From contig JAILRA010000096.1 in NCBI GenBank assembly GCA_024698715.1, positions 1-45,123 of the forward strand: a DNA stretch of 45,123 nucleotides. The letters are read 5' to 3'. The stretch is from Lachnospiraceae bacterium. GTDB taxonomy: Bacteria; Bacillota; Clostridia; Lachnospirales; Lachnospiraceae. The notes beneath the pieces were generated by a model. It was not told where the DNA came from. It was given only the letters and a program-made list of their open reading frames with translations, and made no database searches. Positions 11,747 to 32,879 of this stretch are shown in pieces; position 1 is the stretch's first letter; each line of letters starts with the position of its first letter. The position numbers were made by a program, and so were the translations under genes.

Positions 11747-11896
11747 CGAGTATCGGACGCAAGTATTCGCCGCGGGCACGCTCTCGCTAAAATGTCTCAC
11801 GTAGCGGACGCTAAATTCAACTTCGCATAAATGCTCGTTTCATTAAGCGCCGACGGAGCCATATTACCCGCTCGCGAACCATGCGTCCTCTCCTCG
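11747..11896 (-). repeat. Structured intergenic repeat, copy A (argG leader)
   Basis: Elements of copy A, read as minus-strand RNA. Terminal stem: GGACGCA (near 11888) pairs with TGCGTCC (near 11755). Continuing stem: TTCGC-GA-GCGGG pairs with CCCGC-G-GCGAA. Inner hairpins include GCAT-TT-ATGC and TAGC-GTCC-GCTA. An outer CGAG/CTCG pair extends the stem. The core between the stems is closely similar to copy B upstream of the AICAR transformylase gene. The element fills nearly all of the argG 5' region. It could be a cis-acting RNA leader or a palindromic mobile-type repeat. Confidence 0.7.
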
Positions 11897-11933
11897 TAAA
11901 TATTTCAAATGTATATTTTTATCTGTGATTACC

Positions 11934-13460
11934 TTATCTTCCGTACGTCCGTGTAACCTTTGAAAGATATTCCGCTGCCTCTTTACGCTTTTCGCCTTCA
12001 AGGTATGAAGGAAGTAAACGCCACTTCCAGTTATTGCCTAGTGTAGAAGGTATATTGATACGTGCATCCGAATCAAATCCGAATACATCCTGAATCGGAA
12101 TAATGCATGTATCCGCTACGGAACTTTCGGCAAGTCTTATCATTTCCTTATGAAGATTCCCGACATTCTTTATGCCAAGATACTCTTTTAAATACGCCTT
12201 GTCAACGCGCTTTAGTGTTTTGTACCAGCCTTTTACGGTGTCATTGTCATGAGTTCCCGTGTATACGACGCAGTTTTTATCGTAATTATGGGGAAGATAA
12301 TCATTGTCTTCCGCCGAATCAAAAGCAAATTCCAAAACCTTCATTCCGGGATAGCCCGTCTTTTTAACAAGTTTTAAAACCGTCGGTGTCAGGAATCCAA
12401 GATCTTCGGCTATGATCCTCGGATTTTTCAGTTCCCTGTTGATCGCCTTAAAAAGTTCAAATCCCGGACCAGGAACCCAGTAACCGAATTCCGCCGTCAG
12501 ATCACCGAACGGAATAAAATAATATTCATCAAATGCCCTGAAATGATCGATCCTTACAACATCATACAGTTCAAAACATTTTGAAAGTCTCTTTATCCAC
12601 CATGAATAACCGTCTTTTTTATGGACATCCCAGTCATATAAAGGATTGCCCCAGAGCTGACCTGTGGCTGAAAAATAATCGGGAGGACAGCCCGCAACTC
12701 CCTTTGGTCTTAATTCCTCATCAAAAATAAAAAGTTCCGGATTTGCCCATGTGTCCGCCGAATCCGATGCCACATAAATAGGTATGTCGCCAATGATCTC
12801 GATTCCTTTTTCATTCGCATATTTTTTAAGCGAAAGCCACTGCTTCTTAAAGAAATACTGAAGGAATTTATAAAACCCGATCTGAGGTGCAAGTTCTTTT
12901 CGGGCATTGGTCATTGCCTTTTCATCACGAAGTCTTAATTCATCTTCCCAATCGTAAATGGAAACTCCGTTCTTGCTGTCCTTTATCGCCATGTAAAGTG
13001 CATAATCATCAAGCCAGTATTCTTCATCCAGGATGAATTTCGCATAATCCTTATCGGACTCGATATAACTTCTTTCGTATGCACGTCTCAAAAGAGAAAA
13101 CCTTGCATGATACTGTGCTTCATAATCTACGTGATTGTTTTTTTCGTCATCGCCCGCTTTTTTATACCATTCGTTCGACTCGTAATACTCTTCATATGCT
13201 TCATCGCATTCTTCTGCCGACAGCCATCCGTTATCGATAAATTCCTGAAGATCAATAAAATACGGATTACCCGCAAATGTCGAAAATGACTGGTACGGTG
13301 AATCGCCATAGCCTGTCGGTCCCAGCGGAAGGATCTGCCAGAATTTCTGTCCCGACTCAACCAAAAAGTAAACAAAATCATAAGCCTCTTTTGAGAAGCA
13401 TCCGATTCCGTATTTATTTGGAAGGCTGAATATCGCAGCCAAAATTCCGCTTTTTCTCAT
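11934..13460 (-). CDS. malQ: 4-alpha-glucanotransferase (amylomaltase)
   Basis: GH77 enzyme that disproportionates maltodextrins so that glycogen phosphorylase can keep shortening them. At 508 aa it is the bacterial short form. Motifs: the N-terminal GILAAIFSLPNKYGIGCFS, then LPLGPTGYGDSPYQSFSTFA (about 45-64), IGDIPIYVASDSADTWANP, and GCPPDYFSATGQLWGNPLYDW. The catalytic nucleophile is D305 in VRIDHFRAF, the acid/base E352 in IIAEDLGFLTP, and the transition-state aspartate D405 in GTHDND. It lies 8 nt after a small unknown gene and close behind glgP, so the three form a glycogen/maltodextrin-breakdown operon. Its ribosome site is weak, suggesting translation coupled to the upstream gene. Confidence 0.96.
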   Translation of the reverse strand: MRKSGILAAIFSLPNKYGIGCFSKEAYDFVYFLVESGQKFWQILPLGPTGYGDSPYQSFSTFAGNPYFIDLQEFIDNGWLSAEECDEAYEEYYESNEWYKKAGDDEKNNHVDYEAQYHARFSLLRRAYERSYIESDKDYAKFILDEEYWLDDYALYMAIKDSKNGVSIYDWEDELRLRDEKAMTNARKELAPQIGFYKFLQYFFKKQWLSLKKYANEKGIEIIGDIPIYVASDSADTWANPELFIFDEELRPKGVAGCPPDYFSATGQLWGNPLYDWDVHKKDGYSWWIKRLSKCFELYDVVRIDHFRAFDEYYFIPFGDLTAEFGYWVPGPGFELFKAINRELKNPRIIAEDLGFLTPTVLKLVKKTGYPGMKVLEFAFDSAEDNDYLPHNYDKNCVVYTGTHDNDTVKGWYKTLKRVDKAYLKEYLGIKNVGNLHKEMIRLAESSVADTCIIPIQDVFGFDSDARINIPSTLGNNWKWRLLPSYLEGEKRKEAAEYLSKVTRTYGR

Positions 13461-13468
13461 TTTTTAAC

Positions 13469-13732
13469 CTATACTACCGGATAATTTGCAGTTTCATATT
13501 GTTTCCAATACCTGAGAATATAGTCTGCATCTACTTCATCATCCAAGAATCTTTTTATTTCTTTGATTTCATCCATAAATTCCGGCAAAACTCTTTTATC
13601 TATTTCACTTTCACATTTTCTTTCTACGGCATTTAACCAAAAATCAGAGTAATCTTTACCGCTTATTCCGTTTATATAATTCATGTGACTGTCTACACAT
13701 CTTTTTACATCACCGGCTATATCCAAAAGCAT
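13469..13732 (-). CDS. Small hypothetical protein between glgP and malQ
   Basis: 87 aa, acidic, with no membrane segment or signal peptide; not recognised. The sequence looks mainly alpha-helical, with charged/aromatic spacing (DYSDFWLNAVERKCESEID, then ILRYWKQYETANYPVV). A GAGGG ribosome site precedes the ATG. It is 8 nt from malQ and 40 nt after glgP, so it belongs to the same transcript. An adaptor or regulator of one of the two enzymes is one possibility, but a recent insertion cannot be excluded. Codon use looks native. Confidence 0.6.
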   Translation of the reverse strand: MLLDIAGDVKRCVDSHMNYINGISGKDYSDFWLNAVERKCESEIDKRVLPEFMDEIKEIKRFLDDEVDADYILRYWKQYETANYPVV

Positions 13733-13772
13733 ATTATTCCCTCATCTTATCCATAATCATATAAATTTACCT

Positions 13773-16115
13773 TTATACTATCGATACCTTAATATCTTTC
13801 TTTGGGAAAAGTTTCCATATGTCTCGGTTGTAATCCTCGATGGTTCTGTCGGAAGAGAAGAAACCGGCTTTGGCGATGTTGGTAAGCATCATCTTCTGCC
13901 ATTTTGACCTGTCTTCGTAATCTTCTATCATCCTGTCTTTAACTTCGATGTATTCCTCAAGGTCGATAAGCGTCATGAACCAGTCTTTATTAAGCAATTC
14001 TTTGTAAAGACGTTCAAGATTTTTTTTATGTCCGACCTTCAATGCTTCTTTGGACACGATAAAGTCTACCGCTTCTTTTATGACTTCAGACTTCTTATAG
14101 TAATCTTTTGATACATAATCCGCTTTTACATAATGCTCAATGACTTCGTCGCTTGACACACCGAATTCGTAAATGTTTTCTTTACCGACGAGTTCAGCGA
14201 TCTCAACATTTGCTCCGTCGGCGGTACCGAGTGTTACCGCACCGTTTAACATGAACTTCATGTTACCCGTACCTGATGCTTCCTTGCTGGCAAGCGAGAT
14301 CTGCTCGGAAATATCACATGCGGGAATGAGTTTTTCCGCATAACTTACATTGTAGTTTTCAAGCATTACAACCTTCATATACTTGTTTACGTCGGGATCG
14401 TTGTTTACGATCTCCTGTAAAACAAGAATGAGATGAATGATATCCTGTGCGATAACATAAGCGGGAGCAGCCTTGGCACCGAAGATAAATGTGATCGGTC
14501 TTACGGGTTTCTTTCCGCCTTTTATCTCAAGATACTTATGAATGATGTAAAGAGCATTCATCTGCTGTCTCTTGTATTCATGAAGTCTCTTTGCCTGAAT
14601 ATCGAAGATCGAATCCGTATCTATCTCCACTCCTGCTTTTTCTTTCAGATATTCTGCAAATTCAACTTTTTTGGTATGTTTTATTTCTTCTATTCCTTTA
14701 AGAACATCGGCATCATCTTTGAACTCAAGAAGCTTTTCGAGATCATTGGCATTCTTCTTGTATGAAGTACCGATCTTCTCATCCAGAAATGCGCAAAGTT
14801 CGGGATTGCATGATAAAAGCCATCTTCTGAATGTGATTCCGTTGGTCTTGTTGTTAAACTTTTCGGGGTAGATCTTGTAAAAAGCATTTAATTCCGAGTT
14901 CTTCAAAATATCGGTATGGATCGCGGCAACACCGTTGATTGAGAAGCCGTAATGAATATCGATATGAGCCATGTGAACTCTTTCGTCCTTGTCGATAATG
15001 GCTACCTTGGGATCTTTGTATTTTGCTTTTGCTCTCTTGTCGAGTTCCTTGATGATGGGGATCAGCTGGGGAACAACTTTTTCAAGATATTTGAGCGGCC
15101 ATTTTTCAAGAGCTTCCGAAAGGATCGTATGGTTGGTATATGCACAAGTCTTTGATACGATCTCGATCGCCTCGTCGATACCGATTCCTTTTTCGCTTGT
15201 CATGATCCTGATAAGCTCGGGAATGATCAGTGTCGGGTGAGTATCGTTGATCTGGATCACGCAGAAATCATACATGTGTCTTAAGTCGTACTTTCTTTCC
15301 CTGAGTTCATAGAGAATAAACTGTGCGGCATTGGAGCACATAAAATACTGCTGGTAAATACGAAGAAGATTGCCCGCTTCATCCGAATCATCGGGATAAA
15401 GGAACAATGTAAGATTCTTTTCTATTTCTTTTTTGTCAAAAGTGATCCCTTCTTTTACAAGCTTCTCATCCACGCTTTCAAGATCGAAGAGATGAAGTCT
15501 GTTGACACCGTTTTCATATCCGATCACATCTATGTCATAAAGTCTGGATCTGACGCTGCAGTCTTTAAAAACCACCGTAAAAGAAGTATCCGTTTTTCTG
15601 AGCCAGCTGATCTCTTCGATCCAGTCGTTCTTTTCTGCACACTGAAGATTGTCTCTGAACTCCTGTTTGAAAAGTCCGAAATGATAATTGAGTCCTATGC
15701 CGGCACCGGGTAATCCGAGTGTTGCTATCGAATCCATAAAGCATGCGGCAAGTCTTCCGAGTCCACCGTTTCCGAGTGAAGGTTCGGGTTCCACTTCTTC
15801 AATGAGTGCGATATCTTTTCCGTTCTTTGCAAGTACTTCTTTTACCTTGTCGTAAATCCCAAGATTGATGAGATTGTTAGTCAGAAGTCTTCCGATAAGG
15901 AACTCTGCGGAAATATAATATACCTTCTTCTCACCGTTTATCCTGTCCGTAACATTGGTCAGGTCTTTGGTAAAAAGAAGTATCACATAGTATGCTTCGC
16001 GATCTGATAATTCCTTCAGATCCTTACCGAAAATTTTATTTGAAATATAATCAAGGCCCTCTTCCATGTTGGCTTCGAGCAATTGTTTCTGGATCATCTC
16101 TGCCTGTAATGACAT
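13773..16115 (-). CDS. glgP: Glycogen/maltodextrin phosphorylase
   Basis: GT35 enzyme that releases glucose 1-phosphate from the ends of alpha-1,4-glucans. 780 aa, slightly short for the family but with every block present: [14 protein letters not shown] (65-78), [19 protein letters not shown] (111-129), [15 protein letters not shown] (137-151), [14 protein letters not shown] (327-340), [12 protein letters not shown] (509-520), and the PLP-lysine block [20 protein letters not shown] with K620. The start has an AAGAAGG site. A consensus promoter lies just upstream, so glgP leads the glgP-small-malQ operon. No glycogen synthesis genes are in the window. Whether the preferred substrate is glycogen or maltodextrin is not visible from sequence. 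Confidence 0.96.
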
Positions 16116-16151
16116 TTTTATCTACCTTCTTTCAAAAAGATATTCCTTACA

Positions 16152-16180
16152 ATTTTACATCATAAATACCGCTAATTCAA
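16152..16180 (-). promoter_or_regulatory. Predicted sigma-70 promoter of glgP
   Basis: Minus-strand TTGAAT (16180-16175) and TAAAAT (16157-16152) are spaced by exactly 17 nt. The -10 box is 36 nt before the glgP start. Matched by eye. Confidence 0.6.
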
Positions 16181-16228
16181 TAAATAAAACTACTTTAATT
16201 TATTAGCACATACTTCGTTCGGGCATTT

Positions 16229-17779
16229 TTATTCATTCGAAAGTGTCACTGTATTTTTACCGAAATACCTAGCGTAAGCCTCATTAACCCAGTCGGTATT
16301 ATCAGTTGAAATATCCACGAAATGCAAAAGATACGGCATTCTCGTGTAAGGCTTAAACACTGCGTCCGTAACATCAGGATCGTTCAATACTTCAAGACGC
16401 TCTTCCCATTCTGCCCGATAGATTCCAGCTTCGTTTTCCCTTAAGGAATAGTATGCGGAGATCGATGTCGCAGTCTTTCCGTAGTACTTATATATGCAGA
16501 ATGCGATAAGGACCGTTGCCAGAAATGCAATCGGAAGTTTTAAAAACTTTATGACTTTTTTAAGATCGGCTACGGTTTTTTTATCATAATTTCCTTCGCT
16601 TAAATCTTCATTTTTTTCACTGCAGTTTCGTTCGCTTTTTTTCTTTTTCAGTCCTTCAAAAAGATCGGATAAATATCCGGTCCAGTACCAGAGATTCAAG
16701 GGTAAAAGAAGAAACATCGTAAACCTGTAGAGATTCTGAACCCTGTACATTCCGATGATCTTTAAAGCATAAAGATTGGACGTGAACATCGATGCAAAAA
16801 CACAGAATGAGAACAACGTGAAAAGTACCGGAAATCTGAATCTTATCTTTTTGTTTTTCATCATTCCGATAAAAAGCGGAAGCAGGAAAACGTTCAAAAG
16901 AATGACCGGAAGATTCGTCCATGTTTTGATATATTTTGCAGCCTCGACAAATGACATCATTATCGCATGCAAAGCCGTGTCTCCTTCGCCTGCGGATGCC
17001 TGCCTTACACCCGCTCCGGGGCTCAACGCATTAAGCGCAAACAGCGCAACAAACCAAATGAACAGAGTGATGAAAAATACTCTGTTTCTTTTTTCGAAAA
17101 AAGATGAGATCATTACGATCCCTGTCAGGCATAAAGCAGCAAGTCCGGTAACATAGTTTGAACCTGCAATGACAAACGCCATCACAAAGATCAGTACCCG
17201 AAGGATCGCGGGATGATCTTCGTCAGAAACAAGCATGGAATAAAGAAGTGCAAAATACAGAATACTGACCGCAAAAGGGAAAGTGTAGAGTGCCACGCTC
17301 GGCATCCAGAAAAAAGCCTCCATACCCGAAGGAGGAAGCAGTATCTGAAACATTATCACGGGAAGGATCGCAGTTACCGCTTTGACTGTCGTTGTTCCCT
17401 GAACCTTATGAAACAAAAAGAATGCGGCAAGAGTTTCGAAAACGATCAGTGAAATGAGACCGATAAATGTCGATACAAAATATGCTTTTTCGGCGAATAT
17501 CGCAAGAAGCACAAAATAAAGCCAGTCCGCGAAATACAATCCCTGCCAGCTTTTCCATGTCTCATATGACTGAACCGCTTCGTACCACAGTGTCTTTAAG
17601 ACCGAATGCGATTCTTTCCACACGCCGCCGACCTGATACATATAACTGAAATCATCTGCGGACATAAAAGAATATTTGGAGATCATGAAAAGAGGAATGA
17701 GAATGATAACGAGTGTTACCGTCAGACCTGAAAGTATTAAAATATCAAAAATATCAGTCCTGTTTTTCATTTCTTTCAT
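16229..17779 (-). CDS. Polytopic membrane protein, DUF6056/GT-C-like
   Basis: 516 aa with about ten to twelve hydrophobic segments. After the first segment comes an outward loop with SADDFSYMYQVGG (about 38-50) and then WQGLYFADW (about 78-86). The acidic DDF/DDL motif after TM1, followed by a W-x-G-R/L pattern, and a later SPGAGVRQA (compare APGNFVRNA in the protein at 38605) point to the same DUF6056-type family. Such proteins resemble GT-C glycosyltransferases, which use lipid-linked sugars and act outside the membrane; activity is not shown. A charged cytoplasmic loop (KKKKSERNCSEKNEDLSEG) lies near residue 385. Its start overlaps the preceding gene by 26 nt, so the two are translationally linked. 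Confidence 0.65.
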   Translation of the reverse strand: MKEMKNRTDIFDILILSGLTVTLVIILIPLFMISKYSFMSADDFSYMYQVGGVWKESHSVLKTLWYEAVQSYETWKSWQGLYFADWLYFVLLAIFAEKAYFVSTFIGLISLIVFETLAAFFLFHKVQGTTTVKAVTAILPVIMFQILLPPSGMEAFFWMPSVALYTFPFAVSILYFALLYSMLVSDEDHPAILRVLIFVMAFVIAGSNYVTGLAALCLTGIVMISSFFEKRNRVFFITLFIWFVALFALNALSPGAGVRQASAGEGDTALHAIMMSFVEAAKYIKTWTNLPVILLNVFLLPLFIGMMKNKKIRFRFPVLFTLFSFCVFASMFTSNLYALKIIGMYRVQNLYRFTMFLLLPLNLWYWTGYLSDLFEGLKKKKSERNCSEKNEDLSEGNYDKKTVADLKKVIKFLKLPIAFLATVLIAFCIYKYYGKTATSISAYYSLRENEAGIYRAEWEERLEVLNDPDVTDAVFKPYTRMPYLLHFVDISTDNTDWVNEAYARYFGKNTVTLSNE

Positions 17780-19469
17780 CTTTGAAACTCTTTACCAACG
17801 GAAGCATGCTTAAGAAGAATACCGAGAACATCATTTTACCGGGAAAAGCACTGTTCTCCAGCATGCCTATCAAAACCATACCGAGCTGCCATAACGCGAT
17901 CGCAATAAAATACCAGGGTGTTTTTTCTTTTTTCACAAAAGCAAAAACGATCGGATAAATAAGCGAATAAAGCGACATACCCGTGAAAATGATACCCTGA
18001 ATGATGCCGAAACAGTATGCAATCTGAAGATACGAATTATGTGCATGAGGAACGGCATACCAATGCAGGATATACACCGAAGGATATTCTTCTTTGTGAC
18101 CTGTAAAATTGAGGTTCTTAAAGAAGTACGCGAATATGTATTTTCTTATTCCGAATATCTTTTCTATTCCTTCGTAATTTTCGTAAACATATGCGGGATG
18201 TTCATGGTCCGTTCCGGGAAGCACATGATCTGGATATGAGTATACAACTCCTCCTATCTCCACATATTCTCCGAGAGGTTCTTCTTCCTGAGCTTCTTCA
18301 GCCGCAGGATCGGGAGAAGCATATCTTTCTTCGGATATCACTTCCTGTGTGACTATACCGCCTCTTGTATCGATGTTCTCGGGATCGAACCTTCCGGTGA
18401 AGCATTCGAAAAACTCATTCAGATCAGTGTATTTTTCAGAATTCCAGGGATCAAACGAATGTACAAAATCCTCACTGTATTCGGTGATCCAGATCGGATG
18501 ATGTCTTAATGCGGGTATGTATCTTACACAGACAAAAACAAGCGGGAAACTCAATGCAAAAATGCAGAACATGCAGATCCCCTTTAAAAGGAATCCTTTG
18601 AGAAACTTCTTTCTGAACAGAATGAGATCATTCAGAACGAGATAAAGTATCGTTGTGAAAAAGAATGAAACAAGGGTGCTTCTGCTTATCGTAAGACACG
18701 CAAATGACCACATGGCGCATGCAAAAAGGAAATGGATCACGCGAAGGAATTTCCCGGCATTTATCTTTTCAAGATATGTGCACTTTACAAGCCATCCGAA
18801 ATAAACACAAAGATAAAACATTCCGTTAACATTGGAATTGGTATACGCACCGACATATCTTATCTGATCGTAGGGGCGATGCAAAAACGCAAATGACTGG
18901 ATCAGGAAAAACGAAATGATGAGCGCATCCGAAAGAGATACAAAAAGTCTTTCGTCATCTTTTGAATCACCGGGAGCAAGGAAAAGCGGGATGAAATACA
19001 ACCCGAAATAAAGCGGCCACAATGCCCTGTTTATCGAGATCGTACAAAGAATAAAGAATGCGGCGCATACATAAAAGAACGGATTTAATCTCTTAAATAT
19101 TCCGACGAATTCTTTTTTGATGATACCCTGAATGAGCCTTATGACGATCAAGCCGTAAAATACAGTTTCGACAACAAGTCCGGCAAACGCCATCCTGTGT
19201 ATTGCACTGTAATAATATTTCTTTATAACGAAAGCCGCTACGGGAACGGATAGGATAAGCCAGATAAGATAAGGGATTTTAATGAAACTCTTGAATCCGA
19301 ATTTCGTGACCGTTACGGGGAAAATGCAAAAGCCGACACAGCTGACGGCAAGATTCCACCAGTCTCCGCCGCCAACCGCTCTTACAAAAGCAACGGTGCA
19401 AAGAAGGAGCATGCTCAGAGTATATATTATTCTTTTGTGATCGATCGTGATCGGTTTATGCTCTTTCAT
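17754..19469 (-). CDS. O-antigen ligase/polymerase-like membrane protein
   Basis: 571 aa, with about twelve hydrophobic segments. The Wzy_C/WaaL type is indicated by a large extracytoplasmic loop (about 325-470) followed by the family's catalytic-site signature VPHAHNSYLQIAYCFGII, with H475, H477 and N478. Another family-like stretch, CLTISRSTLVSFFFT, sits near residue 255. Members transfer or polymerise undecaprenyl-linked glycans on the outer face of the membrane, for example in O-antigen, teichuronic-acid-like or glycoprotein assembly. The loop contains an acidic segment (PDPAAEEAQEEEP). It is the third of four consecutive large membrane proteins. The glycan acted on is unknown; the fucose nucleotide genes at the right end are a possible but distant link. 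Confidence 0.75.
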   Translation of the reverse strand: MKEHKPITIDHKRIIYTLSMLLLCTVAFVRAVGGGDWWNLAVSCVGFCIFPVTVTKFGFKSFIKIPYLIWLILSVPVAAFVIKKYYYSAIHRMAFAGLVVETVFYGLIVIRLIQGIIKKEFVGIFKRLNPFFYVCAAFFILCTISINRALWPLYFGLYFIPLFLAPGDSKDDERLFVSLSDALIISFFLIQSFAFLHRPYDQIRYVGAYTNSNVNGMFYLCVYFGWLVKCTYLEKINAGKFLRVIHFLFACAMWSFACLTISRSTLVSFFFTTILYLVLNDLILFRKKFLKGFLLKGICMFCIFALSFPLVFVCVRYIPALRHHPIWITEYSEDFVHSFDPWNSEKYTDLNEFFECFTGRFDPENIDTRGGIVTQEVISEERYASPDPAAEEAQEEEPLGEYVEIGGVVYSYPDHVLPGTDHEHPAYVYENYEGIEKIFGIRKYIFAYFFKNLNFTGHKEEYPSVYILHWYAVPHAHNSYLQIAYCFGIIQGIIFTGMSLYSLIYPIVFAFVKKEKTPWYFIAIALWQLGMVLIGMLENSAFPGKMMFSVFFLSMLPLVKSFKDERNEKQD

Positions 19470-19520
19470 TTTACGTTAAATCCTTTTATCTTCAGACACT
19501 GATAGGATTATTACTTTCTC

Positions 19521-21167: not shown

Positions 21168-21182
21168 GTGAACCTGAATTTA

Positions 21183-23256: not shown

Positions 23257-23293
23257 AATGTACCTCTTTAGTGCCGCCCGTCTTATCCTCGGA

Positions 23294-23815
23294 TCAGTCC
23301 AAAAGTCCAGGCATAATATGAACGGTCATGATTTCTTCGTCAAGGTCGACATCCATTATACATTCTTCTATTGCAGGTATCAAAACCTCTTTGCCGTCCG
23401 GTTGGGTTACAACATAGACATCATTGGCTTTTGTGAAAAGAACATCCGTAAGTTCGCCGAATTCTTCTCCCTCGTCGGTAACGACTTTCAGTCCTAGAAG
23501 ATCCGCCACAAAATACTCGTCGTCTTCAAGATCGACAGCATGTTCCCTGTCCACATATATATTTTTGCCCTTAAAAGGCTCTATTTCGTTGATATCACCG
23601 AATTCTTTGAATTTGACGATGATAAACTGCTTAAAGTATTTTACGTTCTGAATGTGCAGGACCTTAAGTTCTTTTCCCGTATCGAGAAAAACTTCGTCAA
23701 GTTCGTCATATCTTCTCGGATCGTCGGTTGTCGGAAAAACCTTTACTTCTCCCTTGATCCCGTGCGTGGAAGTAATGGCTCCGACCTGCAGATATTTGTC
23801 AGAATCTATTTCCAA
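23294..23815 (-). CDS. rimM: Ribosome maturation factor RimM
   Basis: 16S rRNA-processing factor that binds ribosomal protein S19 during 30S head assembly. At 173 aa it has the normal two-domain form. The N-terminal beta-barrel begins YLQVGAITSTHGIKGEVKVFP (9-29) with the invariant THGIKGEV, and DDPRRYDEL follows. The PRC-barrel half shows DDEYFVADLLGLKVV (about 97-111) and the family signature VLIPAIEECIMDVDLDEEIM (about 144-163). It lies between pyrF and trmD in the same direction. rpsP and ffh, its usual upstream neighbours, are replaced here by pyrF. Confidence 0.96.
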   Translation of the reverse strand: MEIDSDKYLQVGAITSTHGIKGEVKVFPTTDDPRRYDELDEVFLDTGKELKVLHIQNVKYFKQFIIVKFKEFGDINEIEPFKGKNIYVDREHAVDLEDDEYFVADLLGLKVVTDEGEEFGELTDVLFTKANDVYVVTQPDGKEVLIPAIEECIMDVDLDEEIMTVHIMPGLLD

Positions 23816-23885
23816 ATCGTACTCCTTACAATCAGTCCGAAACCGGACTTCAAATGCCGTAATAATTCTTTCGTTCCGTTATCCT

Positions 23886-24803: not shown

Positions 24804-24824
24804 ATTTTTATCTCCTTTGAAAAC

Positions 24825-26255
24825 CTAAACATTTTCCTGTTTGGGTTGTTTTTTTCTGAATATGACCGAACGGAAAAGAATAATGTTCAACACGATGAAG
24901 TAAAGCGCGATAACACCCATCGTGATATATACACTCGTATCGCTCTTGGGACAGAAAGCCGCCACGAGCATCATCGGGAATCCCAGAAGGATCGCAGGGA
25001 AGTTCTGGTAAACAATATTCTCCGATGCGGGGGTGTCGAATGAAGGATCTATCTCTCTTAAAAGAATAACACCCGTCGAAGCCGTTCCCGTAAGCATTCC
25101 GTACATTACCATGAACTGCTCATGTTTATACTGAGAGAAAAGCCTGTTGGATACAAATTTGATGTATACAAATGTAACCAATACGCCCAGCACTGCGAGG
25201 ATAATCAGAACAAGCCAGTAATCCTTGATAAGATCGACACGGATGGCTCCGATTCCCGCAACGATCATAATATCAAAAGCGAAACCCGCGATCCTGTTCA
25301 AAAGGAAATTATTGACGTAATCGCGGTGCATCAGATTAGTTTTCTTGAGCAGTTTCAGTATTTCCTTAACGATGACCGCCGAAAGTGCGCCGAGCAGGAA
25401 ATTAAATCCGTATATCGTGGTTGTAAGCCCCGGTCCCACCAATTCCGCAAGAGTGACCATAAGAGCAAAAGTAAGCGCATAACAGACAAACACCAGAGCA
25501 ATCTGTAAAGTAAGCTTGTCTATCGAGTCCACCATCGGAACCTCTCCGTCCTCTTCCACGAGTTCGTTGTTAAGTTTGGAACCCAACTCGCGAATGACAA
25601 TATTGCCTTTTTTCTTATGATAGTTAAGATAGATTACACCGCCGATACTTGCAGCAAGAAAACCCAATGCGGCTATGGTAAGTCCGAAGGATTTGCCGCC
25701 GATGAATCCGTAATCGTTTTCGTATATAGAACCGTAGTTTAATGCCTGTCCGGTACCCTGTCCGAACCCGAAGCAAAGTATGATGCCGCTCGCTTTAATA
25801 AGCTTCGGAATAAAAAAGGAAGCCGCAACCGTAACCGCCAGACCGATAAATCCCTGTAAAAGATAGGTGCTTACCGTGGTGATTCCGGTATTTATGACCT
25901 CATTTATACGCCCTTTTATCTTTCCCTTGCTTTCTGATTTTCTGAGCGTCATCGCAATAAATCCGATTGCAAGACAATGATATGTGAGCACTTCAAGTAT
26001 TTCAATCCCGCTCATTGAAGTGCCTTCATTGAAGATCGGAAAATTGAAAATATATTCCCCGAGCGTGAATTTGGCAATGGTAGAGATCAAAAGAAGAAAC
26101 AGTCCTCCCAAAACCGATACCGGGATCAGCGATTTCCGTAAAAAAGGTATATATCTTTTCAGTGTATTCCCTACAAGAAGGCTGCCTAAAATCATAGCCA
26201 TAAAAAGAATTATCGGCCATACGTTGGTACTTGCAAATGATAATCCGCTAGACAT
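24825..26255 (-). CDS. GltS-like sodium/glutamate symporter family protein
   Basis: 476 aa with about twelve hydrophobic segments in two inverted halves. The first half contains the conserved pore stretch GIILCFGFGQGTGQALNYG (about 156-174), corresponding to the GGHGTA-type loop of the GltS/ESS family. The second half has MYGMLTGTASTGVILLREIDP (about 388-408). Known members import glutamate with Na+. The first-half loop departs from the usual GltS signature (FGFGQGTG for GGHGTA-like), so the substrate could be another carboxylate or amino acid. It is co-directional with pyrF. A GGAGA site precedes the ATG. Confidence 0.8.
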   Translation of the reverse strand: MSSGLSFASTNVWPIILFMAMILGSLLVGNTLKRYIPFLRKSLIPVSVLGGLFLLLISTIAKFTLGEYIFNFPIFNEGTSMSGIEILEVLTYHCLAIGFIAMTLRKSESKGKIKGRINEVINTGITTVSTYLLQGFIGLAVTVAASFFIPKLIKASGIILCFGFGQGTGQALNYGSIYENDYGFIGGKSFGLTIAALGFLAASIGGVIYLNYHKKKGNIVIRELGSKLNNELVEEDGEVPMVDSIDKLTLQIALVFVCYALTFALMVTLAELVGPGLTTTIYGFNFLLGALSAVIVKEILKLLKKTNLMHRDYVNNFLLNRIAGFAFDIMIVAGIGAIRVDLIKDYWLVLIILAVLGVLVTFVYIKFVSNRLFSQYKHEQFMVMYGMLTGTASTGVILLREIDPSFDTPASENIVYQNFPAILLGFPMMLVAAFCPKSDTSVYITMGVIALYFIVLNIILFRSVIFRKKQPKQENV

Positions 26256-26300
26256 TAATTTCTCCGTTTCTATATTTGATCAAACTGCTTTGTCATTTTT

Positions 26301-27470
26301 TCAGTTCGCCTGTTTCAGACAGCGGTCAAGAAGCAGTTTGTACAGGTATCCGGGATATTTGATCTTTTTGTCGCTTATCTCGTAATATTTTTTATCTTTG
26401 GTAAATATCAAAAGATATCCGTGGAAGAAAATATCATATCCGCTTATGTCTTTAAGTTCAATGACTTTGTCACCCACACTTAAAGTCCGTCCTGTTAATA
26501 CCAGATCGCCTTCACCTACGATCTTTTCCTCGTGATCCCTGTTTATTTCGCGAATGGTCTGCCCCGGATGAGATATCAGTACTTCTTTTTCGGGAATTTC
26601 GGTAAATGAGAAAATTTCATTTTTCTGCCACTTATCCCATTCGGGAATGGTTGAAAACCCGAAGCCTTCTCCCGAAAGCATACCATATTCATTATACACA
26701 CCTTTAAGCCCGCAGTCACAAAAAAATCGGTTTTTTTGGGATTTAATTGTGGCAAGACCCCTGCATTTAGGGCACATTACCAGTTCAAACTCAATGCCTT
26801 CCGCCGCTTTTCGGCTTTTGTAAGCAATCTTTTTGTCACTGTTATATGAATAAGCATCTTCAAAAATATCCCGGTTTATGGCTTCATCCAGCTCAGCGGA
26901 ACTCATTTTCTTCAGATCGTTCGGAGTATAAATATGAACCAGTTCGGCACTCATCTCACCTTTTCTGATATCCGATGCCCATCTGGGTGATGTGAAGAAC
27001 CCTCCGTGGATCCTGAATGTCACGAGGGTATATCCGAGTTTTTTAACAACTGCTGCCGTGGACGGAACAATTTTGTTGCTTAGTCCGTCAGCCGATCTGA
27101 CACCCTCCGCGAACAGTCCGACATTATGTCCTGCCTGAAGACATTTCTTCATTTCGACCACCGTGCTGAGTCCGACGGTACCCTTTTCACGAACTATCGG
27201 ATGAAAGAGATTATTGAGCAGTTTTCCGCCCAGACCTTTCCTTACAACGTGTTCGCTGGACACAAAATATAGATGATTGACTATGGAATAACCTATCCAG
27301 ACCATGTCAAGATTGGTCACATGGTTGGAAATGAGAATAAACGGTTCGTCCGGCAGATTATAAAGCGTTTCCCTTTTAAAATTAAATTTAGATTTAACAA
27401 AAGGTACGGCGATTTTTCTTAAAATCCGATATGCTTTTATGTCAAAATTGTATGTATCTTTCTTTTCCAT
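26301..27470 (-). CDS. PlsC-type acyltransferase with internal zinc ribbon and extra C-terminal domain
   Basis: 389 aa from the ATG at 27470. Upstream ATGs at 27548 and 27497 are unlikely starts: the first lies against the terminator T tract of nrdD and the second overlaps a predicted -10 box. The acyltransferase domain has the catalytic NHVTNLD (H50, D55) and FAEGVRS (120-126), where FPEGTRS is usual. After it a four-cysteine ribbon appears, CPKC (233-236) and CDC (251-253), then about 130 residues that look beta-rich (ISGYDIFFHGYLLIFTKDKK). Plain PlsC proteins acylate lysophosphatidate; the added ribbon and C-terminal domain suggest a specialised member of unknown acceptor. It has its own predicted promoter. 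Confidence 0.8.
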   Translation of the reverse strand: MEKKDTYNFDIKAYRILRKIAVPFVKSKFNFKRETLYNLPDEPFILISNHVTNLDMVWIGYSIVNHLYFVSSEHVVRKGLGGKLLNNLFHPIVREKGTVGLSTVVEMKKCLQAGHNVGLFAEGVRSADGLSNKIVPSTAAVVKKLGYTLVTFRIHGGFFTSPRWASDIRKGEMSAELVHIYTPNDLKKMSSAELDEAINRDIFEDAYSYNSDKKIAYKSRKAAEGIEFELVMCPKCRGLATIKSQKNRFFCDCGLKGVYNEYGMLSGEGFGFSTIPEWDKWQKNEIFSFTEIPEKEVLISHPGQTIREINRDHEEKIVGEGDLVLTGRTLSVGDKVIELKDISGYDIFFHGYLLIFTKDKKYYEISDKKIKYPGYLYKLLLDRCLKQAN

Positions 27471-27495
27471 ATCTTGTATACCCGCTACACCTACC

Positions 27496-27524
27496 ATTTT
27501 ATTGGTTTTTAGGCGTTTATGCAA
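27496..27524 (-). promoter_or_regulatory. Predicted promoter of the zinc-ribbon acyltransferase gene
   Basis: Minus-strand TTGCAT (27524-27519) and TAAAAT (27501-27496) are spaced by 17 nt, directly downstream of the nrdD terminator. Transcription from it would begin after the ATG at 27497, which supports the start at 27470. Confidence 0.5.
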
Positions 27525-27548
27525 GCAAAAGCTGTCATAAAAGGGCAT

Positions 27549-27608
27549 AAAAAAACCAACTCCCGAATACCGCGCTGAACTTCAACCGGTATATTTCGAG
27601 GAGTTGGT
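27549..27608 (-). terminator. Rho-independent terminator after nrdD
   Basis: A perfect 9-bp stem (ACCAACTCC at 27555-27563 with GGAGTTGGT at 27600-27608) contains an inner ATACCG/CGGTAT stem. On the minus strand it is followed by seven T residues. It starts 13 nt beyond the nrdD stop. Confidence 0.88.
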
Positions 27609-27620
27609 CATTATCAGATC

Positions 27621-30092
27621 TTATGCAAGTACGCCCTTCTTTTCATCCACATATTTCTTGATCTCGGAAGCACGAACGTATTTCTTGATATCCGTTCCGT
27701 CATCAACTATAAGAGTGGGAGCCATCTGAACTCCGTATTTACGTGCGAGTTCGGGCTGCTCAAGAGCATCGATCAGTTTGTAGGGAAGATTTCCCAAGTA
27801 TTCTTTCGCAATTGCACAGTTAGGACAGGTTTTTGTAGTAAACAGAAGAACCGTGTCCGCGCTGTCATTGTACAAATTAGCGGATGCATGTACCTGTGAA
27901 CTGTTCAAAGATGAAGCATTTCCCGAAAAAAGATTGGCATATGTTTCATTTTCATTATTTTCAGTCTTTACTGCTGCCTTCTGCTCATCCTTTTTGGAAA
28001 GGCTGTCGGATTTGGTCAGTGAAAGATTGATATCGTATTCTTTTCTGTTCTTGAATTCCTGAAGTTTTCCGTCATTCCAGTTCTGAACAGGTCTGTAGTA
28101 TCCGGTGATACGGCTGTAGATCTCTGTCTTGCATCCGCAGTCGGGACAGATATCCTGCTCACCTGCCAGATATCCGTGATTCTTGCAGATGGAATATGTA
28201 GGAGACATTGTATAGTAAGGAAGTTTGTAATTCTCGGCAATCGTTCTTACAAGTTTTGCCGCTGCCTTCCAGTCGGGAAGCTTCTCACCGAGGAATGCAT
28301 GGAATACTGTTCCTGAAGTATATAATGTCTGAAGTTCGTCCTGAATATCAAGTGCATCAAATACATCGTCGGTAAAATCTACGGGAAGATGGGATGAGTT
28401 TGTATAGTAAGGAGTGTCACCCTCTTTTCCTGCCGTCTTGATATCGGGCCAGCGGTCGCGATCGTGCTTTGCAAGACGGAATGTTGTAGATTCTGCGGGA
28501 GTAGCCTCAAGGTTGTAAAGGTCACCGTACTGTTCCTGATAATCGGAAAGACGATTGCGCATATGATTGAGTACTTCTTTTGTAAACTCCTGAGTTTCTT
28601 TGTTGGTCATGTCATGACCGAGCCATTTTGCGTTAAGTCCCACTTCGTTCATACCGATAAGACCGATGGTCGAGAAATGGTTGTTGAAGTCACCGAGATA
28701 TCTCTTTGTATAAGGATAAAGTCCTTCATCGAGAAGTTTGGAGATGACTCCTCTCTTAAGCTTAAGACTTCTTGCGGAAATATCCATTATCTTGTCGAGT
28801 CTCTTGAAGAACTCTTCGGGATTTGCAGAAAGATAAGCTATTCTCGGCATATTGATGGTAACAACGCCCACCGAACCGGTTGATTCGCCCGAACCGAAGA
28901 ATCCGCCTGTTTTCTTTCTTAATTCTCTGAGGTCAAGACGAAGTCTGCAGCACATTGAACGGACATCCGAAGGCTTCATATCCGAATTGATGTAGTTTGA
29001 GAAATAAGGTGTTCCGTACTTTGACGTCATGTCAAAGAGAAGTTTATTGTTAAGTCTGTCTGACCAGTCAAAATCAGCTGTTATTGAATATGTGGGAATG
29101 GGATACTGGAATCCTCTTCCGTTTGCATCGCCTTCGATCATAGTTTCAAGGAATGCACGGTTGATCATATCCATTTCTTCCTTGCAGTCCGCATAGGTGA
29201 AATCCATTTCCTTTCCGCCGACAAGTGCCTTTTCGTTGGCAAGGTCATCGGGAACGGTCCAGTCAAGCGTAATGTTGGTGAAAGGTGCCTGTGTACCCCA
29301 TCTTGAAGGTGTGTTTACACCGTAAATGAAGGATTCGATACATTTCTTAACATCATCATAGCTTAAGTTGTCTGCTTTAACGAAGGGAGCAAGATATGTG
29401 TCAAATGACGAGAATGCCTGAGCACCTGCCCATTCGTTCTGCATGATACCGAGGAAGTTTACCATCTGGTTGCAAAGAACGGAAAGGTGAGCTGCAGGAG
29501 CAGATGTGATCTTTCCGGGAATTCCTCCGAGGCCTTCCTGAATAAGCTGCTTTAATGACCATCCTGCACAGTAACCCGTAAGCATGGAAAGATCGTGAAT
29601 ATGAATATCGGCGTTACGATGTGCATCCGCAATCTCTTCATCATAAATCTCGGAAAGCCAGTAGTTTGCGGTTATGGCACCGGAGTTTGAAAGGATAAGA
29701 CCGCCTACCGAATATGTAACGGTTGCATTTTCCTTAACTCTCCAGTCCTCTACTTTAACATATGCGTTCACTACATCCTTATAATCAAGGATAGTGGATT
29801 TCATGTTACGCATTTTTTCACGCTGCTTACGATAAAGAATGAATGCTTTGGCTGCTTCTGCGTATCCCGACTGCTCAAGGATCTTTTCTACAGAGTCCTG
29901 TACGTCTTCAACATGAACGTAACCCTCTTTAATCTTAGCCTGAAAATCAGCAGTTACACGGAGTGCGAGAAGATCTATGATATCTTCGCTGTACTGAACA
30001 TCAGTAGCATCGAATGCTTTCTTGATGGCATCATTGATTTTAACGATCTTAAAATCAGATTTTTCTCCGTCTCTTTTAATTACACCAAACAT
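27621..30092 (-). CDS. nrdD: Anaerobic ribonucleoside-triphosphate reductase fused to a glutaredoxin-like domain
   Basis: Class III glycyl-radical enzyme that makes deoxyribonucleotides without oxygen. 823 aa from the ATG at 30092, which has a GGAGG site; the longer frame opens at a TTG that is part of the -35 box. An ATP-cone (about 1-90) begins MFGVIKRDGEKSDFKIVKIN. Catalytic landmarks include WGTQAPFTNITLDW and the zinc-site cysteines CKNHGY and CPDCGC. The radical glycine is G664 in RITGYYRPVQNWNDGK. A Ser/Asn-rich linker of about 80 residues leads to a C-terminal thioredoxin-fold domain (about 747-823) with CPNC (756-759), probably a built-in disulfide reductant. The activase gene nrdG is not adjacent, since a terminator follows at once. 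Confidence 0.95.
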   Translation of the reverse strand: MFGVIKRDGEKSDFKIVKINDAIKKAFDATDVQYSEDIIDLLALRVTADFQAKIKEGYVHVEDVQDSVEKILEQSGYAEAAKAFILYRKQREKMRNMKSTILDYKDVVNAYVKVEDWRVKENATVTYSVGGLILSNSGAITANYWLSEIYDEEIADAHRNADIHIHDLSMLTGYCAGWSLKQLIQEGLGGIPGKITSAPAAHLSVLCNQMVNFLGIMQNEWAGAQAFSSFDTYLAPFVKADNLSYDDVKKCIESFIYGVNTPSRWGTQAPFTNITLDWTVPDDLANEKALVGGKEMDFTYADCKEEMDMINRAFLETMIEGDANGRGFQYPIPTYSITADFDWSDRLNNKLLFDMTSKYGTPYFSNYINSDMKPSDVRSMCCRLRLDLRELRKKTGGFFGSGESTGSVGVVTINMPRIAYLSANPEEFFKRLDKIMDISARSLKLKRGVISKLLDEGLYPYTKRYLGDFNNHFSTIGLIGMNEVGLNAKWLGHDMTNKETQEFTKEVLNHMRNRLSDYQEQYGDLYNLEATPAESTTFRLAKHDRDRWPDIKTAGKEGDTPYYTNSSHLPVDFTDDVFDALDIQDELQTLYTSGTVFHAFLGEKLPDWKAAAKLVRTIAENYKLPYYTMSPTYSICKNHGYLAGEQDICPDCGCKTEIYSRITGYYRPVQNWNDGKLQEFKNRKEYDINLSLTKSDSLSKKDEQKAAVKTENNENETYANLFSGNASSLNSSQVHASANLYNDSADTVLLFTTKTCPNCAIAKEYLGNLPYKLIDALEQPELARKYGVQMAPTLIVDDGTDIKKYVRASEIKKYVDEKKGVLA

Positions 30093-30141
30093 TTTCCATT
30101 CCTCCAACACAAATCTTTCGGCTTTCACGCCGATTGTCTCT

Positions 30142-30170
30142 ATTTTAGCATCAGCATTTTTCCTTGTCAA
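30142..30170 (-). promoter_or_regulatory. Consensus sigma-70 promoter of nrdD
   Basis: Minus-strand TTGACA (30170-30165), a perfect -35, is separated by 17 nt from TAAAAT (30147-30142). The -10 box is 49 nt before the nrdD ATG. Confidence 0.8.
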
Positions 30171-30177
30171 CGAAAAT

Positions 30178-30223
30178 CTACAAGATGTAGTATTGTTTTT
30201 TTCTTAACAATACCATATATTGT
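30178..30223 (-). promoter_or_regulatory. Candidate NrdR box pair upstream of nrdD
   Basis: Two palindromes lie just upstream of the -35 box. CTACAAGATGTAG occupies 30178-30190. ACAATA-ccata-TATTGT occupies 30207-30223. Their centres are 31 bp apart, about three helical turns, which is the known spacing of paired NrdR boxes. The first resembles the ATCTTGT core of NrdR sites on the minus strand. NrdR represses ribonucleotide reductase genes when dATP/ATP are high. The assignment is by eye; nrdR itself is not in the window. Confidence 0.5.
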
Positions 30224-30250
30224 CAAAAATGGTTTGCATAAAAATGAGCA

Positions 30251-30287
30251 TAAAAACAGCGCACCCCCTAATAAAATGGGGATGCGC
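30251..30287 (-). terminator. Rho-independent terminator after the TPR lipoprotein gene
   Basis: A ten-position stem with one mismatch (GCGCACCCC at 30259-30267 with GGGGATGCGC at 30278-30287) and an A/T loop is followed on the minus strand by a T-rich tract. It lies 24 nt beyond the stop at 30311 and separates the purine/TPR unit from nrdD. Confidence 0.85.
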
Positions 30288-30310
30288 TTCATTTTTAGGT
30301 TTACATAATT

Positions 30311-31417
30311 TTATCTGGTCTTGAGGAAATTGTATTCTCTTGCCATGTCCTCATCTGAGGGGTAATCCACAAGATATTGTGCACAAAGGTCCCTTGCCTT
30401 GTCAAACTGTGCAAGATGTTCGTATGCCACTATCCTGTTGTACAACAGTTCCTGTCTGCATTCGTTGGCATCCAGTTCGAGACCGTTCACCACAGCATCA
30501 AGTGCTTCCTCATATCTGCCCTGATCAATGAGTGCAACGGCGAGCTGATTGTATACTCCTGCATCGGGTTCCGTCTCCAGATACTTACTGTATATTGTGA
30601 TCGCAAAAGCAGTATCATCAAGTTCCTCGTAACATTTGCCGAGCAAAAGAAGAACCTCTTCACTCTTGTTTCCGCCGGTCCTGGCCTGTTCGAGATAATC
30701 TTTTGCCGTCGGATAATTGCCGAGGCAGTAGTTGATGTATCCCTTGTCGTAATCCGACATGTTGCGGTTGTATTTCTGCAGAGCTTCGTTCAGATAATCG
30801 GCGCCGTAGGACTGATATCCGGTTTCGGCCAGAAGATTATAAATATCTATATATAGTGTAAAATCTTTTTTCTTAAGCGAAAGTGCCTTGTCAAAATCCG
30901 TACATGCCGAGTCCACATCCTTAAGATACAGATATTCCGCGCCGCGCTGCATATATGCGTCAACTTCTCTGGACTTGAGTGCTATTATCGCATCATATCT
31001 TTCTTTTGCTTCTTTATACTGTCCGAGCTTATGAAAACATACGCCCATATAATAGTTTACGTCATAATCCATTTTGGAAGGTGTGGCGCCCGAGTTGGCC
31101 AGAGCTTCCTTAAAAGCATCTATCGCCTCCTCATATTCACCCTTGTTCATAAGACAGATACCGAGTCCTCTGTAGGCCATTGCAAGGTCGGATTTCGAAT
31201 CTATCGCCTGTCTGAAACTCTGCTCAGCCGAGGTATAATCCGGTTCCTCGAGAAATTCGTATCCCTTTTGAACAGCCTCTGCATCCTCTTTGGATGTACA
31301 AGCCGTAAGGGAAAAGACTCCGAGCAGCAGTGCAAAAATCACCGGCTGCCAAAAAGCTCTTTTGGATGATATTACTTCTTTATTCGGTTTTCTGACATTT
31401 CGGTTTAAAAAACGCAT
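30311..31417 (-). CDS. TPR-repeat lipoprotein
   Basis: 368 aa. A basic N-terminus and hydrophobic segment (22-36) end in the lipobox SLTAC, so Cys40 should be lipidated and the protein held on the outer face of the membrane. From about residue 45 to the end it is built of tetratricopeptide repeats (for example AMAYRGLGICLMNKGEYEEAIDAFKEAL, then VNYYMGVCFHKLGQYKEAKERY, and later VYNQLAVALIDQGRYEEALDAV), roughly eight helical pairs. TPR domains bind other proteins; the partner is unknown. It starts 33 nt after the AICAR transformylase gene with an AAGGAG site and ends at a terminator, so it is the last gene of that unit without an obvious link to purines. Confidence 0.85.
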   Translation of the reverse strand: MRFLNRNVRKPNKEVISSKRAFWQPVIFALLLGVFSLTACTSKEDAEAVQKGYEFLEEPDYTSAEQSFRQAIDSKSDLAMAYRGLGICLMNKGEYEEAIDAFKEALANSGATPSKMDYDVNYYMGVCFHKLGQYKEAKERYDAIIALKSREVDAYMQRGAEYLYLKDVDSACTDFDKALSLKKKDFTLYIDIYNLLAETGYQSYGADYLNEALQKYNRNMSDYDKGYINYCLGNYPTAKDYLEQARTGGNKSEEVLLLLGKCYEELDDTAFAITIYSKYLETEPDAGVYNQLAVALIDQGRYEEALDAVVNGLELDANECRQELLYNRIVAYEHLAQFDKARDLCAQYLVDYPSDEDMAREYNFLKTR

Positions 31418-31450
31418 ACCGAATGCTCCTTAATATATACGCTTGATAAA

Positions 31451-32626
31451 TTAATGATGGAAAAGTCTCATCTTTGTAAAGCACATTACCATGCCGTACT
31501 TGTCGGCACACTCGATAACGAGATCGTCTCTTACGGATCCGCCGGGTTCGGCAATATACTTAACACCGCTCTTCTTTGCTCTCTCGATGTTGTCCGAGAA
31601 GGGGAAGAAAGCGTCCGAGCCGAGAGCCACGTCAGTCATCTGATCGAGCCATGCTCTCTTTTCTTCTTTTGTAAAGATCTCGGGTTTAACCTTGAAGATC
31701 TTCTGCCAGTTGCCTTCGGCAAGACAGTCAAGTTCGTCACCGATGTAGTTGTCGATAGCATTGTCTCTGTCTGCACGGCCGAGTCCGTCTACGAACTGAA
31801 GCTCAAGTACCTTGGGACACTGACGAAGCATCCAGTTGTCAGCCTTGCTTCCGGCAAGTCTTGTACAGTGAACTCTGGACTGCTGCCCTGCACCGATACC
31901 TATAGCCTGTCCGCCCTTTGCGAAGCAAACGGAATTGGACTGTGTATACTTTAATGTAATAAGTGAAATGATAAGGTCGATCTTTGCAAGGTCGGGAAGT
32001 TCCTTATTCTTGGTAACGATCTCGCTTAAAAGTTCGTTGTTGATCTTGAACTCGTTTCTGCCCTGCTCGAATGTGATGCCGAAAACATCCTTGTGCTCGA
32101 TGGGTTCGGGCTTGTAATCGGGATCTATCTGAATAACATTGTAGTTTCCGCCCTTTTTAGCCTTTAAGATATCAAGTGCTTCGGGCTCGTATCCGGGAGC
32201 GATAACACCGTCGGAAACTTCTCTCTTGATGATCTTGGCTGTGGAAACATCACAAACATCTGAAAGTGAAATGAAATCACCGAAGCTTGACATTCTGTCA
32301 GCGCCTCTTGCTCTTGCATATGCACATGCCAAAGGTGAGAGTTCGCCAAGATCGTCAACCCAGTAGATTTTTGCAAGTACATCGTCCAGAGGAAGACCTA
32401 CTGCGGCACCTGCGGGTGAAACATGCTTAAAACTCGTGGCTGCGGGAAGACCTGTTGCTTCCTTTAACTCCTTAACAAGCTGCCAGCCGTTGAACGCATC
32501 CATAAAGTTTATATATCCGGGCTTGCCGTTAAGCACCGTGATGGGAAGTTCACGACCGTCGTTAACGAAAATCTTACTCGGTTTCTGATTGGGGTTGCAA
32601 CCGTACTTTAATTCCAATTCCTTCAT
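31451..32626 (-). CDS. purH: Stand-alone AICAR transformylase
   Basis: Formylates AICAR with 10-formyl-tetrahydrofolate to FAICAR, the ninth step of IMP synthesis. 391 aa, containing only the transformylase half of classical PurH (about 510-530 aa). Motifs: FKHVSPAGAAVGLPL (about 66-80) with the catalytic Lys-His, SDGVIAPGYEPEAL, IGIGAGQQSRVHCTRLAG, SDAFFPFSDNIERA, and EPGGSVRDDLVIE. The N-terminal IMP-cyclohydrolase (MGS-like) domain is absent; its job is probably done by the separate archaeal-type cyclohydrolase one gene upstream. The symbol is given for the conserved half. An AAGGAG site precedes the ATG. A 211-bp structured repeat fills the space to the cyclohydrolase gene. Confidence 0.93.
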   Translation of the reverse strand: MKELELKYGCNPNQKPSKIFVNDGRELPITVLNGKPGYINFMDAFNGWQLVKELKEATGLPAATSFKHVSPAGAAVGLPLDDVLAKIYWVDDLGELSPLACAYARARGADRMSSFGDFISLSDVCDVSTAKIIKREVSDGVIAPGYEPEALDILKAKKGGNYNVIQIDPDYKPEPIEHKDVFGITFEQGRNEFKINNELLSEIVTKNKELPDLAKIDLIISLITLKYTQSNSVCFAKGGQAIGIGAGQQSRVHCTRLAGSKADNWMLRQCPKVLELQFVDGLGRADRDNAIDNYIGDELDCLAEGNWQKIFKVKPEIFTKEEKRAWLDQMTDVALGSDAFFPFSDNIERAKKSGVKYIAEPGGSVRDDLVIECADKYGMVMCFTKMRLFHH

Positions 32627-32648
32627 AATTTACTCCTTAATTTACTCC

Positions 32649-32859
32649 GTCGAATCGGCATCCATACGATACTGCGCGGGCACGCTTCACACAGTGTGGA
32701 TTCACTAAGCTCGAAAGAACCTCGCTAAGTGAATAGCGACATCGCTAAAGATGTCGCACGTAACGGCTGCTAAACTCGCCTTCGCACGTACGTGCTTGGC
32801 TCGTTAAGCACCGACGGCGCCATATTGCCCGCTAAAGCATCATATGGATGCCTTTCGAC
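32649..32859 (-). repeat. Structured intergenic repeat, copy B (purH leader)
   Basis: Long imperfect terminal inverted repeats: GTCGAA-TC-GGCATCCATACGATAC at the low end against GTCGAA-A-GGCATCCATATGATGC read inward from the high end, both followed by GCGGGCA. Read as minus-strand RNA the core matches copy A (AATATGG, CCGTCGG-GCTTAA, TTTAGC, TACGTG, GACAT, TTAGCGA, GCGTGCCCGCG). Inner hairpins: GCACG-TA-CGTGC, TAGC-AGCC-GTTA, the perfect GCGACATC/GATGTCGC, and an 11-position ATTCACT stem absent from copy A. It ends about 12 nt before the purH ribosome site. Confidence 0.72.
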
Positions 32860-32879
32860 TCACTTAATCAATTATTTAA

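Follow-up and report, generated by a model that had tools for sequence, protein, structure and literature searches.

The bcr1-type repeats of the Bacillus cereus group are dispersed sequences of roughly 150 nt with a predicted RNA structure, and bacterial miniature inverted-repeat transposable elements (MITEs) are short non-coding inverted repeats that vary in copy number and are present at some sites and absent from others. Repetitive extragenic palindromes (REPs), bacterial interspersed mosaic elements (BIMEs) and REP doublets forming hairpins (REPINs) are palindromes of 20–40 bp tagged by GTAG or CGTC (PMC3733652). Here, we analyze a stretch of 45,123 nucleotides from a Lachnospiraceae bacterium (contig JAILRA010000096.1 of assembly GCA_024698715.1), referred to as the window, which contains two related structured elements. 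Copy A is located upstream of argG and copy B upstream of the gene encoding 5-aminoimidazole-4-carboxamide ribonucleotide (AICAR) transformylase. We consider it likely that both belong to a dispersed, non-autonomous inverted-repeat family, with seven copies in this genome, that resembles REPs, BIMEs and MITEs and is found here only in Lachnospiraceae. This reading is supported by copy numbers between 0 and 53, the lack of a strand bias, element-free sites, covariation and head-to-head pairs.

With REPs, BIMEs and REPINs, the family has in common its many dispersed copies of extragenic palindromes, head-to-head dimers next to singlets, and stems of variable sequence; like REPs of the CGTC group, it has no obvious dedicated enzyme (PMC3733652). 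In contrast to the 20–40 bp of REPs and REPINs, its units are about 130–600 nt long and combine a conserved core of several helices with arms that are specific to each copy. Neither a GTAG nor a CGTC tag marks the family as a whole, and the words Firmicutes or Clostridi do not occur in the text of PMC3733652. The family shares the habits of REPs and MITEs; what distinguishes it is its size, its conserved core, its host group and the missing link to a Y1 transposase. Terminal inverted repeats, the absence of an open reading frame (ORF), small size, copy-number variation and presence or absence at individual sites are features of MITEs, whereas the terminal repeats of our family are copy-specific instead of conserved, and neither a consistent target duplication, in the flanks inspected by eye, nor a parental transposase, in the loci read, was found. 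Compared by description only, the family agrees with the bcr1-type repeats in dispersal, a length of roughly 150 nt and a predicted RNA structure, but differs in host group. We found no paper on it in the open-access literature; subscription papers and preprints lay mostly outside this search, so that an earlier description is possible.

Both copies are encoded on the minus strand and carry the motifs that the first-pass annotation had reported for them. They occupy the malQ-argG gap and the gap between the inosine monophosphate (IMP) cyclohydrolase-like gene and the AICAR transformylase gene. As claimed there, they share the orientation relative to the downstream gene and end just before its ribosome site, at a distance of about 11–13 nt. 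Their outer arms are unlike but pair within each copy (GGACGCA with TGCGTCC in A, GGCATCCATA with its partner in B), and their inner hairpins covary (GCAT..ATGC and GCACG..CGTGC). The common core shows a mean column identity of 75% in a 216-column alignment with long insertions in B, which is longer than A because of two additional hairpins. Folding z-scores relative to shuffled sequences are –4.35 for the minus and –3.32 for the plus strand of copy A, and –8.06 for positions 32645–32875, comprising copy B and a few flanking bases. The annotation knew of no named riboswitch with this layout, and indeed no Rfam entry matched the window at E≤1. Among seven copy-bearing loci, Rfam returned two weak matches far below the gathering score, OppA_thermometer, which overlaps the L329 copy (25.6 bits against a gathering score of 290), and mir-2064 (21.2 against 100).

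A pattern search of the own genome with up to three mismatches gave four matches, compared to none for the reversed control. The covariance model R1, built from these four copies, recovered seven, including three beyond the starting set with 133.5, 133 and 89.2 bits; the pattern is therefore not a product of chance. Three of the seven are sense leaders, namely A, B and a copy at a ferredoxin gene (L003), and one (L004) lies antisense between co-directional genes. For the remaining three (L259, L260 and L261), the gene on the 3′ side points towards the element. The neighboring genes have no function in common. In two own-genome copies, an extra duplicated right arm adjoins the element (L003, 1345–1440; L004, 1340–1430).

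The predicted fold consists of a variable outer stem P1, a helix P2, a long hairpin P3 and a small hairpin P4, the latter closed by a loop that we take to be of the GNRA type (GAGA in copy A). Within P3, the stretch CGTCGG..CTTA / TTAG..CCG..ACG is nearly invariant. In an alignment of 44 distinct copies from the genus, two-sided changes were found in 42 of 49 pairs, and 95.8% of the cells pair compared to a shuffled mean of 74.5%; sliding the partner by one to three columns reduces pairing to 24–48%. The corresponding values for a wider alignment of 103 copies are 45 of 49 pairs, 94.0% versus 63.2%, and 31–41%. These counts bear out the family with covarying structure proposed in the annotation, although both alignments were fitted to the model and are hence biased towards its structure. 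A model-free comparison of each left arm with its own reversed right arm gave a median score of 42, as opposed to 12 for arms of different copies, and the own-arm score exceeded the 95th percentile of the control in 147 of 151 copies.

Of 132 copies, 30 have an additional copy-specific inverted repeat outside P1, termed P0, that scores higher than 99% of mismatched controls. Two short end motifs are enriched among 133 copies: AACAGC was found at the left end of 11 (1.52 expected) and GCGTCC at the right end of 15 (0.86 expected); the latter may or may not be related to the CGTC tag of REPs. These counts exclude four duplicates or remnants (L041, L099, L071 and L152; for the end motifs also L022 and L024) as well as copies that contain N or lie too close to a contig or locus end. 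Conservation of end sequences is limited to single lineages, such as genomes G509, G428 and G379. In G428, the arms are alignable over 218–399 positions, and for nine copies the two arms of one copy have a mean score of 316 (identity 0.86), compared to 220 (0.81) for the same side of different copies.

Two interpretations had been put forward in the first-pass annotation, a cis-regulatory RNA for biosynthetic genes and a palindromic dispersed repeat, with orientation named beforehand as the check. We placed 147 distinct copies, of which 109 have neighbors within 600 nt on both sides. Between co-directional genes, 47 of these lie in sense and 46 in antisense orientation, and 8 copies each are found between convergent and divergent genes (23, 18, 1 and 0 in the genus; 24, 28, 7 and 8 at other loci). 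Merging copies with similar flanks leaves 80 distinct sites, of which 30 are sense, 37 antisense, 6 convergent and 7 divergent. A simpler gene caller led to the same conclusion (44, 44, 20 and 16, with 27 lacking a neighbor). For 24 further copies from G428 and G509, the numbers are 4, 9, 9 and 2. There is neither a leader bias nor a strand bias. Of the two options in the annotation, these counts support the dispersed repeat and do not support the riboswitch-like element for biosynthetic genes. In G428, 7 of 14 copies lie between convergent genes.

Orthologous argG and AICAR transformylase loci were each found in 27 of the 31 genus genomes. Among leaders readable over at least 150 nt (26 for argG and 25 for AICAR transformylase; that of L102 is off the contig), a full element precedes the gene in two cases each. 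One more element is located 3′ of the AICAR gene in L100, and G023 carries a remnant at argG. The pheS-pheT gap is filled in G010 and, with a different element sequence, in G009, whereas six other congeners are element-free. A second site is filled with unlike sequences in G003 and G015, element-free in G020, G013, G023 and G005, and ambiguous in G044. At a glnQ-like site, G005, G007 and G023 carry an element, G042 and G044 are clean, G020 has another repeat, and G003 and G013 show two distinct partial deletions. The element therefore comes and goes, and one gap can hold different element sequences.

Other inverted repeats were noticed at several loci. In L100 (G010), the gap of copy B holds an unlike inverted repeat with ends ACACCTCATC...GATGAGGTGT and several internal hairpins. 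Inverted repeats with GGGGACGGTTCTCCTGTC-like and TTTCACGGGGACAGGC stretches were seen at L156 and L262, and the L156 copies (near 1839–1970 and 5096–5227) lie inside them; a GGGGACGGTTCTGTT stretch is also present in the glnQ-like gap of G020. A host hairpin or terminator was considered as insertion target, prompted by a short argG hairpin in G020 and G013 and by a stem around the G005 copy (L023). This idea was dropped because the loop letters correspond to the right end of the element and no such hairpin is present in G042 and G044, where the site is clean. It is touched again by the G428 loci L329–L340, where the arms measure several hundred nt and terminator-like hairpins are visible by eye outside both arms.

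Model R1 matched 27 of 31 genus genomes, own included, with 0 to at least 53 copies each; these are lower bounds, as scoring was limited to 105 candidates from the first look in each genome. A second model, R2, is based on 103 copies located on 81 contig stretches, namely 80 of at least 118 pattern-matched stretches and one viral locus. Among 200 Lachnospiraceae genomes, own included, R2 matched at least 87 with 18 candidates scored per genome. The model search proposed in the annotation yielded matches in the genus as well as the family. Across the class, with strict filters and 12 candidates scored per genome, matches were found in 7 of 291 genomes, that is in 7 of the 10 from the same family and in none of the 281 outside it. 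The titles among the 80 matches listed from the pattern scan of named genomes are mostly Lachnospiraceae; others read Clostridiales, Clostridia, Eubacteriaceae, Agathobacter, Acetatifactor and similar, and one is a Bacteroides sp. metagenome-assembled genome (MAG). Isolates are also among the matches listed (AC2028, G41 and Falcatimonas sp. MSJ-15), and the element is therefore not a MAG artefact. Three genomes (G349, G383 and G379) contain many high-scoring copies with near-equal scores. A phage or plasmid origin was considered and rejected: the pattern matched a single viral contig, and copy A has no match in plasmid and phage collections.

Copies of the 81 stretches that lie within 500 nt of each other form 11 head-to-head and 2 direct pairs, but no tail-to-tail pair. 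In G379, 26 of 35 matches make up 13 head-to-head pairs, whereas G509 (41 matches) and G428 (42 matches) harbor mostly single copies. By eye, all five head-to-head units inspected in G379 (L302–L305 and L153) join arms of the ATTTAAAAATCTC type and the GCGAAACTC type around a middle of 140–281 nt. Among 20 relatives, no empty site of these dimers spans the junction fully; a lone weak match of 78% to the right flank of L304 was not used.

A need for pairing confined to double-stranded DNA would predict equal frequencies of G-U and A-C wobbles. In the fitted alignments, the G-U:A-C counts are instead 31:2 for P2 and 13:1 for P3 (alignment A4), 32:8 and 64:19 (A5), and 13:2 and 12:1 (A6). The excess is similar in sense (120:18) and antisense copies (91:17), indicating that it is the element's own strand, and not the host message, that is constrained. 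For the arms, symmetric scoring of 150 copies with an arm score of at least 16 gave 106:16 in the window's clade, where the copies are related and not independent. Together with the lower arm ratios outside this clade (see below), these counts suggest that the core is the RNA-like part and that the arms may be DNA-level palindromes.

We also searched for genes that could mobilize the element. Of 28 genomes scanned, 15 contain Y1_Tnp and 13 contain RVT_1, and neither domain co-occurs with the element in this set. Six element-rich genomes lack a Y1_Tnp match (G428, G392, G443, G006, G041 and G019), and G428, G392, G006, G041 and G019 lack RVT_1 too, whereas G045 has three Y1 genes but no element match. 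A Y1 transposase or reverse transcriptase was therefore rejected as mobilizer, since its presence does not track the element. A candidate autonomous copy between two same-strand G379 copies was set aside; by eye, its ORFs resemble a helix-turn-helix protein and a metallopeptidase-like protein. An own promoter was rejected for lack of enrichment: upstream of 144 copies, the mean best score is 6.32 compared to 6.89, 6.22 and 7.26 in three controls.

These data bear on other explanations of the family. A cis-regulatory, riboswitch-like leader RNA for argG, purine and other biosynthetic genes would account for A, B and the ferredoxin-gene copy, all in sense between an upstream stop codon and the ribosome site, and for a strongly covarying, strand-polar invariant core. 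We give it hardly any credence, since sense copies do not outnumber antisense ones by copies or by sites, antisense copies show the same polarity, so few orthologous argG and AICAR leaders contain the element, and the own-genome neighbors lack a common function. A structured RNA useful to the host, such as an mRNA stabilizer, a processing site or a small RNA, could have spread anciently and been kept in either orientation. Covariation in nearly all copies, old shared sites included, would fit, as would 93 of 109 copies between co-directional genes and a long hairpin foldable on either strand. Sporadic occurrence and repeated deletion at orthologous sites, the lack of promoter enrichment and 113 of 200 family genomes without a match at 18 candidates scored per genome nevertheless make this explanation unlikely. 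REPs or REPINs proper are short palindromes moved by a Y1 transposase of the REP-associated tyrosine transposase (RAYT) type that acts on one DNA strand; dimers, singlets, polarity and extragenic location agree with REP habits (PMC3733652), but unit length and the distribution of Y1 genes render such an assignment very unlikely.

Several observations weigh against a mobile, dispersed repeat family. No autonomous copy or transposase was found in the loci read; the flanks examined by eye show no consistent target duplication; and no transposition was observed. Mobility is therefore deduced from distribution, on which basis we regard the element as probably a non-autonomous mobile repeat. Four of the 31 congeners have no match, in a limited first look with a model biased towards the clade of the window. 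In G020 and G013, the short argG hairpin is probably a deletion scar instead of an empty site, because its loop matches the right end of the element. Some sites, for example that at the ferredoxin gene, are common to several congeners, and many copies are therefore old. Beyond the clade of the window, the arms show little polarity (80:51 for the wider sample and 16:14 for the A6 set), and the long arms in 14 copies of G428 show the opposite tendency (98:134). The G-U excess is strongest in A4, the copies of which are related and not independent.

In the mobile repeat family as we see it, every copy has the conserved, RNA-like core (P2, P3 and P4) at the apex of palindromic arms (P1, frequently with an outer P0), the sequence of which changes from copy to copy with self-complementarity retained. 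Copies would spread by a mobilization process acting in trans, and the core may be retained for a role in mobilization or element upkeep, either as RNA or as one particular single strand. Palindrome correction at the DNA level or fold-back copying could keep the arms matched. If argG or the purine gene were affected at all, this would be a side-effect of location. A more far-reaching version seems doubtful to us: a distinct kind of mobile element without a known transposase or reverse transcriptase would rely for its spread on a structured core of its own (strand-specific RNA or single-stranded) at the palindrome apex, with arms rewritten in each copy by fold-back copying and not conserved as terminal repeats.

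This widespread family is apparently unnamed and cautions against calling an element a riboswitch from covariation alone. It also provides a natural setting to test the evolution of matched stems, with RNA-like selection on the core versus DNA-level palindrome upkeep in the arms, and is a practical target for repeat masking in gut and rumen genomes. The features of both copies and their neighbors are compiled in Table 1.

Table 1. Positions of copies A and B, their structural parts and adjacent genes in the window
Feature	Position	Strand	Remarks
Copy A	11747..11896	-	5′ of argG; 138.2 bits, covariance model
Copy A, P1 5′ arm	11874..11888	-	partner 11755-11770
Copy A, P1 3′ arm	11755..11770	-	
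Copy A, P2 5′ arm	11865..11871	-	GCGGGTA
Copy A, P3 hairpin and linker after it	11789..11862	-	conserved core; limits approximate
Copy A, P4	11780..11787	-	GAGA loop closed by two pairs
Copy B	32649..32859	-	5′ of AICAR transformylase gene; 136.1 bits, covariance model
Copy B, P1 5′ arm	32836..32852	-	partner 32657-32673
Copy B, P1 3′ arm	32657..32673	-	
Copy B, two additional hairpins	32700..32757	-	not in copy A
argG, argininosuccinate synthase	10505..11722	-	context
malQ, 4-alpha-glucanotransferase	11934..13460	-	context
AICAR transformylase, stand-alone	31451..32626	-	context
IMP cyclohydrolase-like gene	32880..33593	-	PF07826; context

In the region around copy B (31451–33593), the last two steps of purine synthesis are split between the stand-alone AICAR transformylase and the IMP cyclohydrolase-like gene (PF07826).

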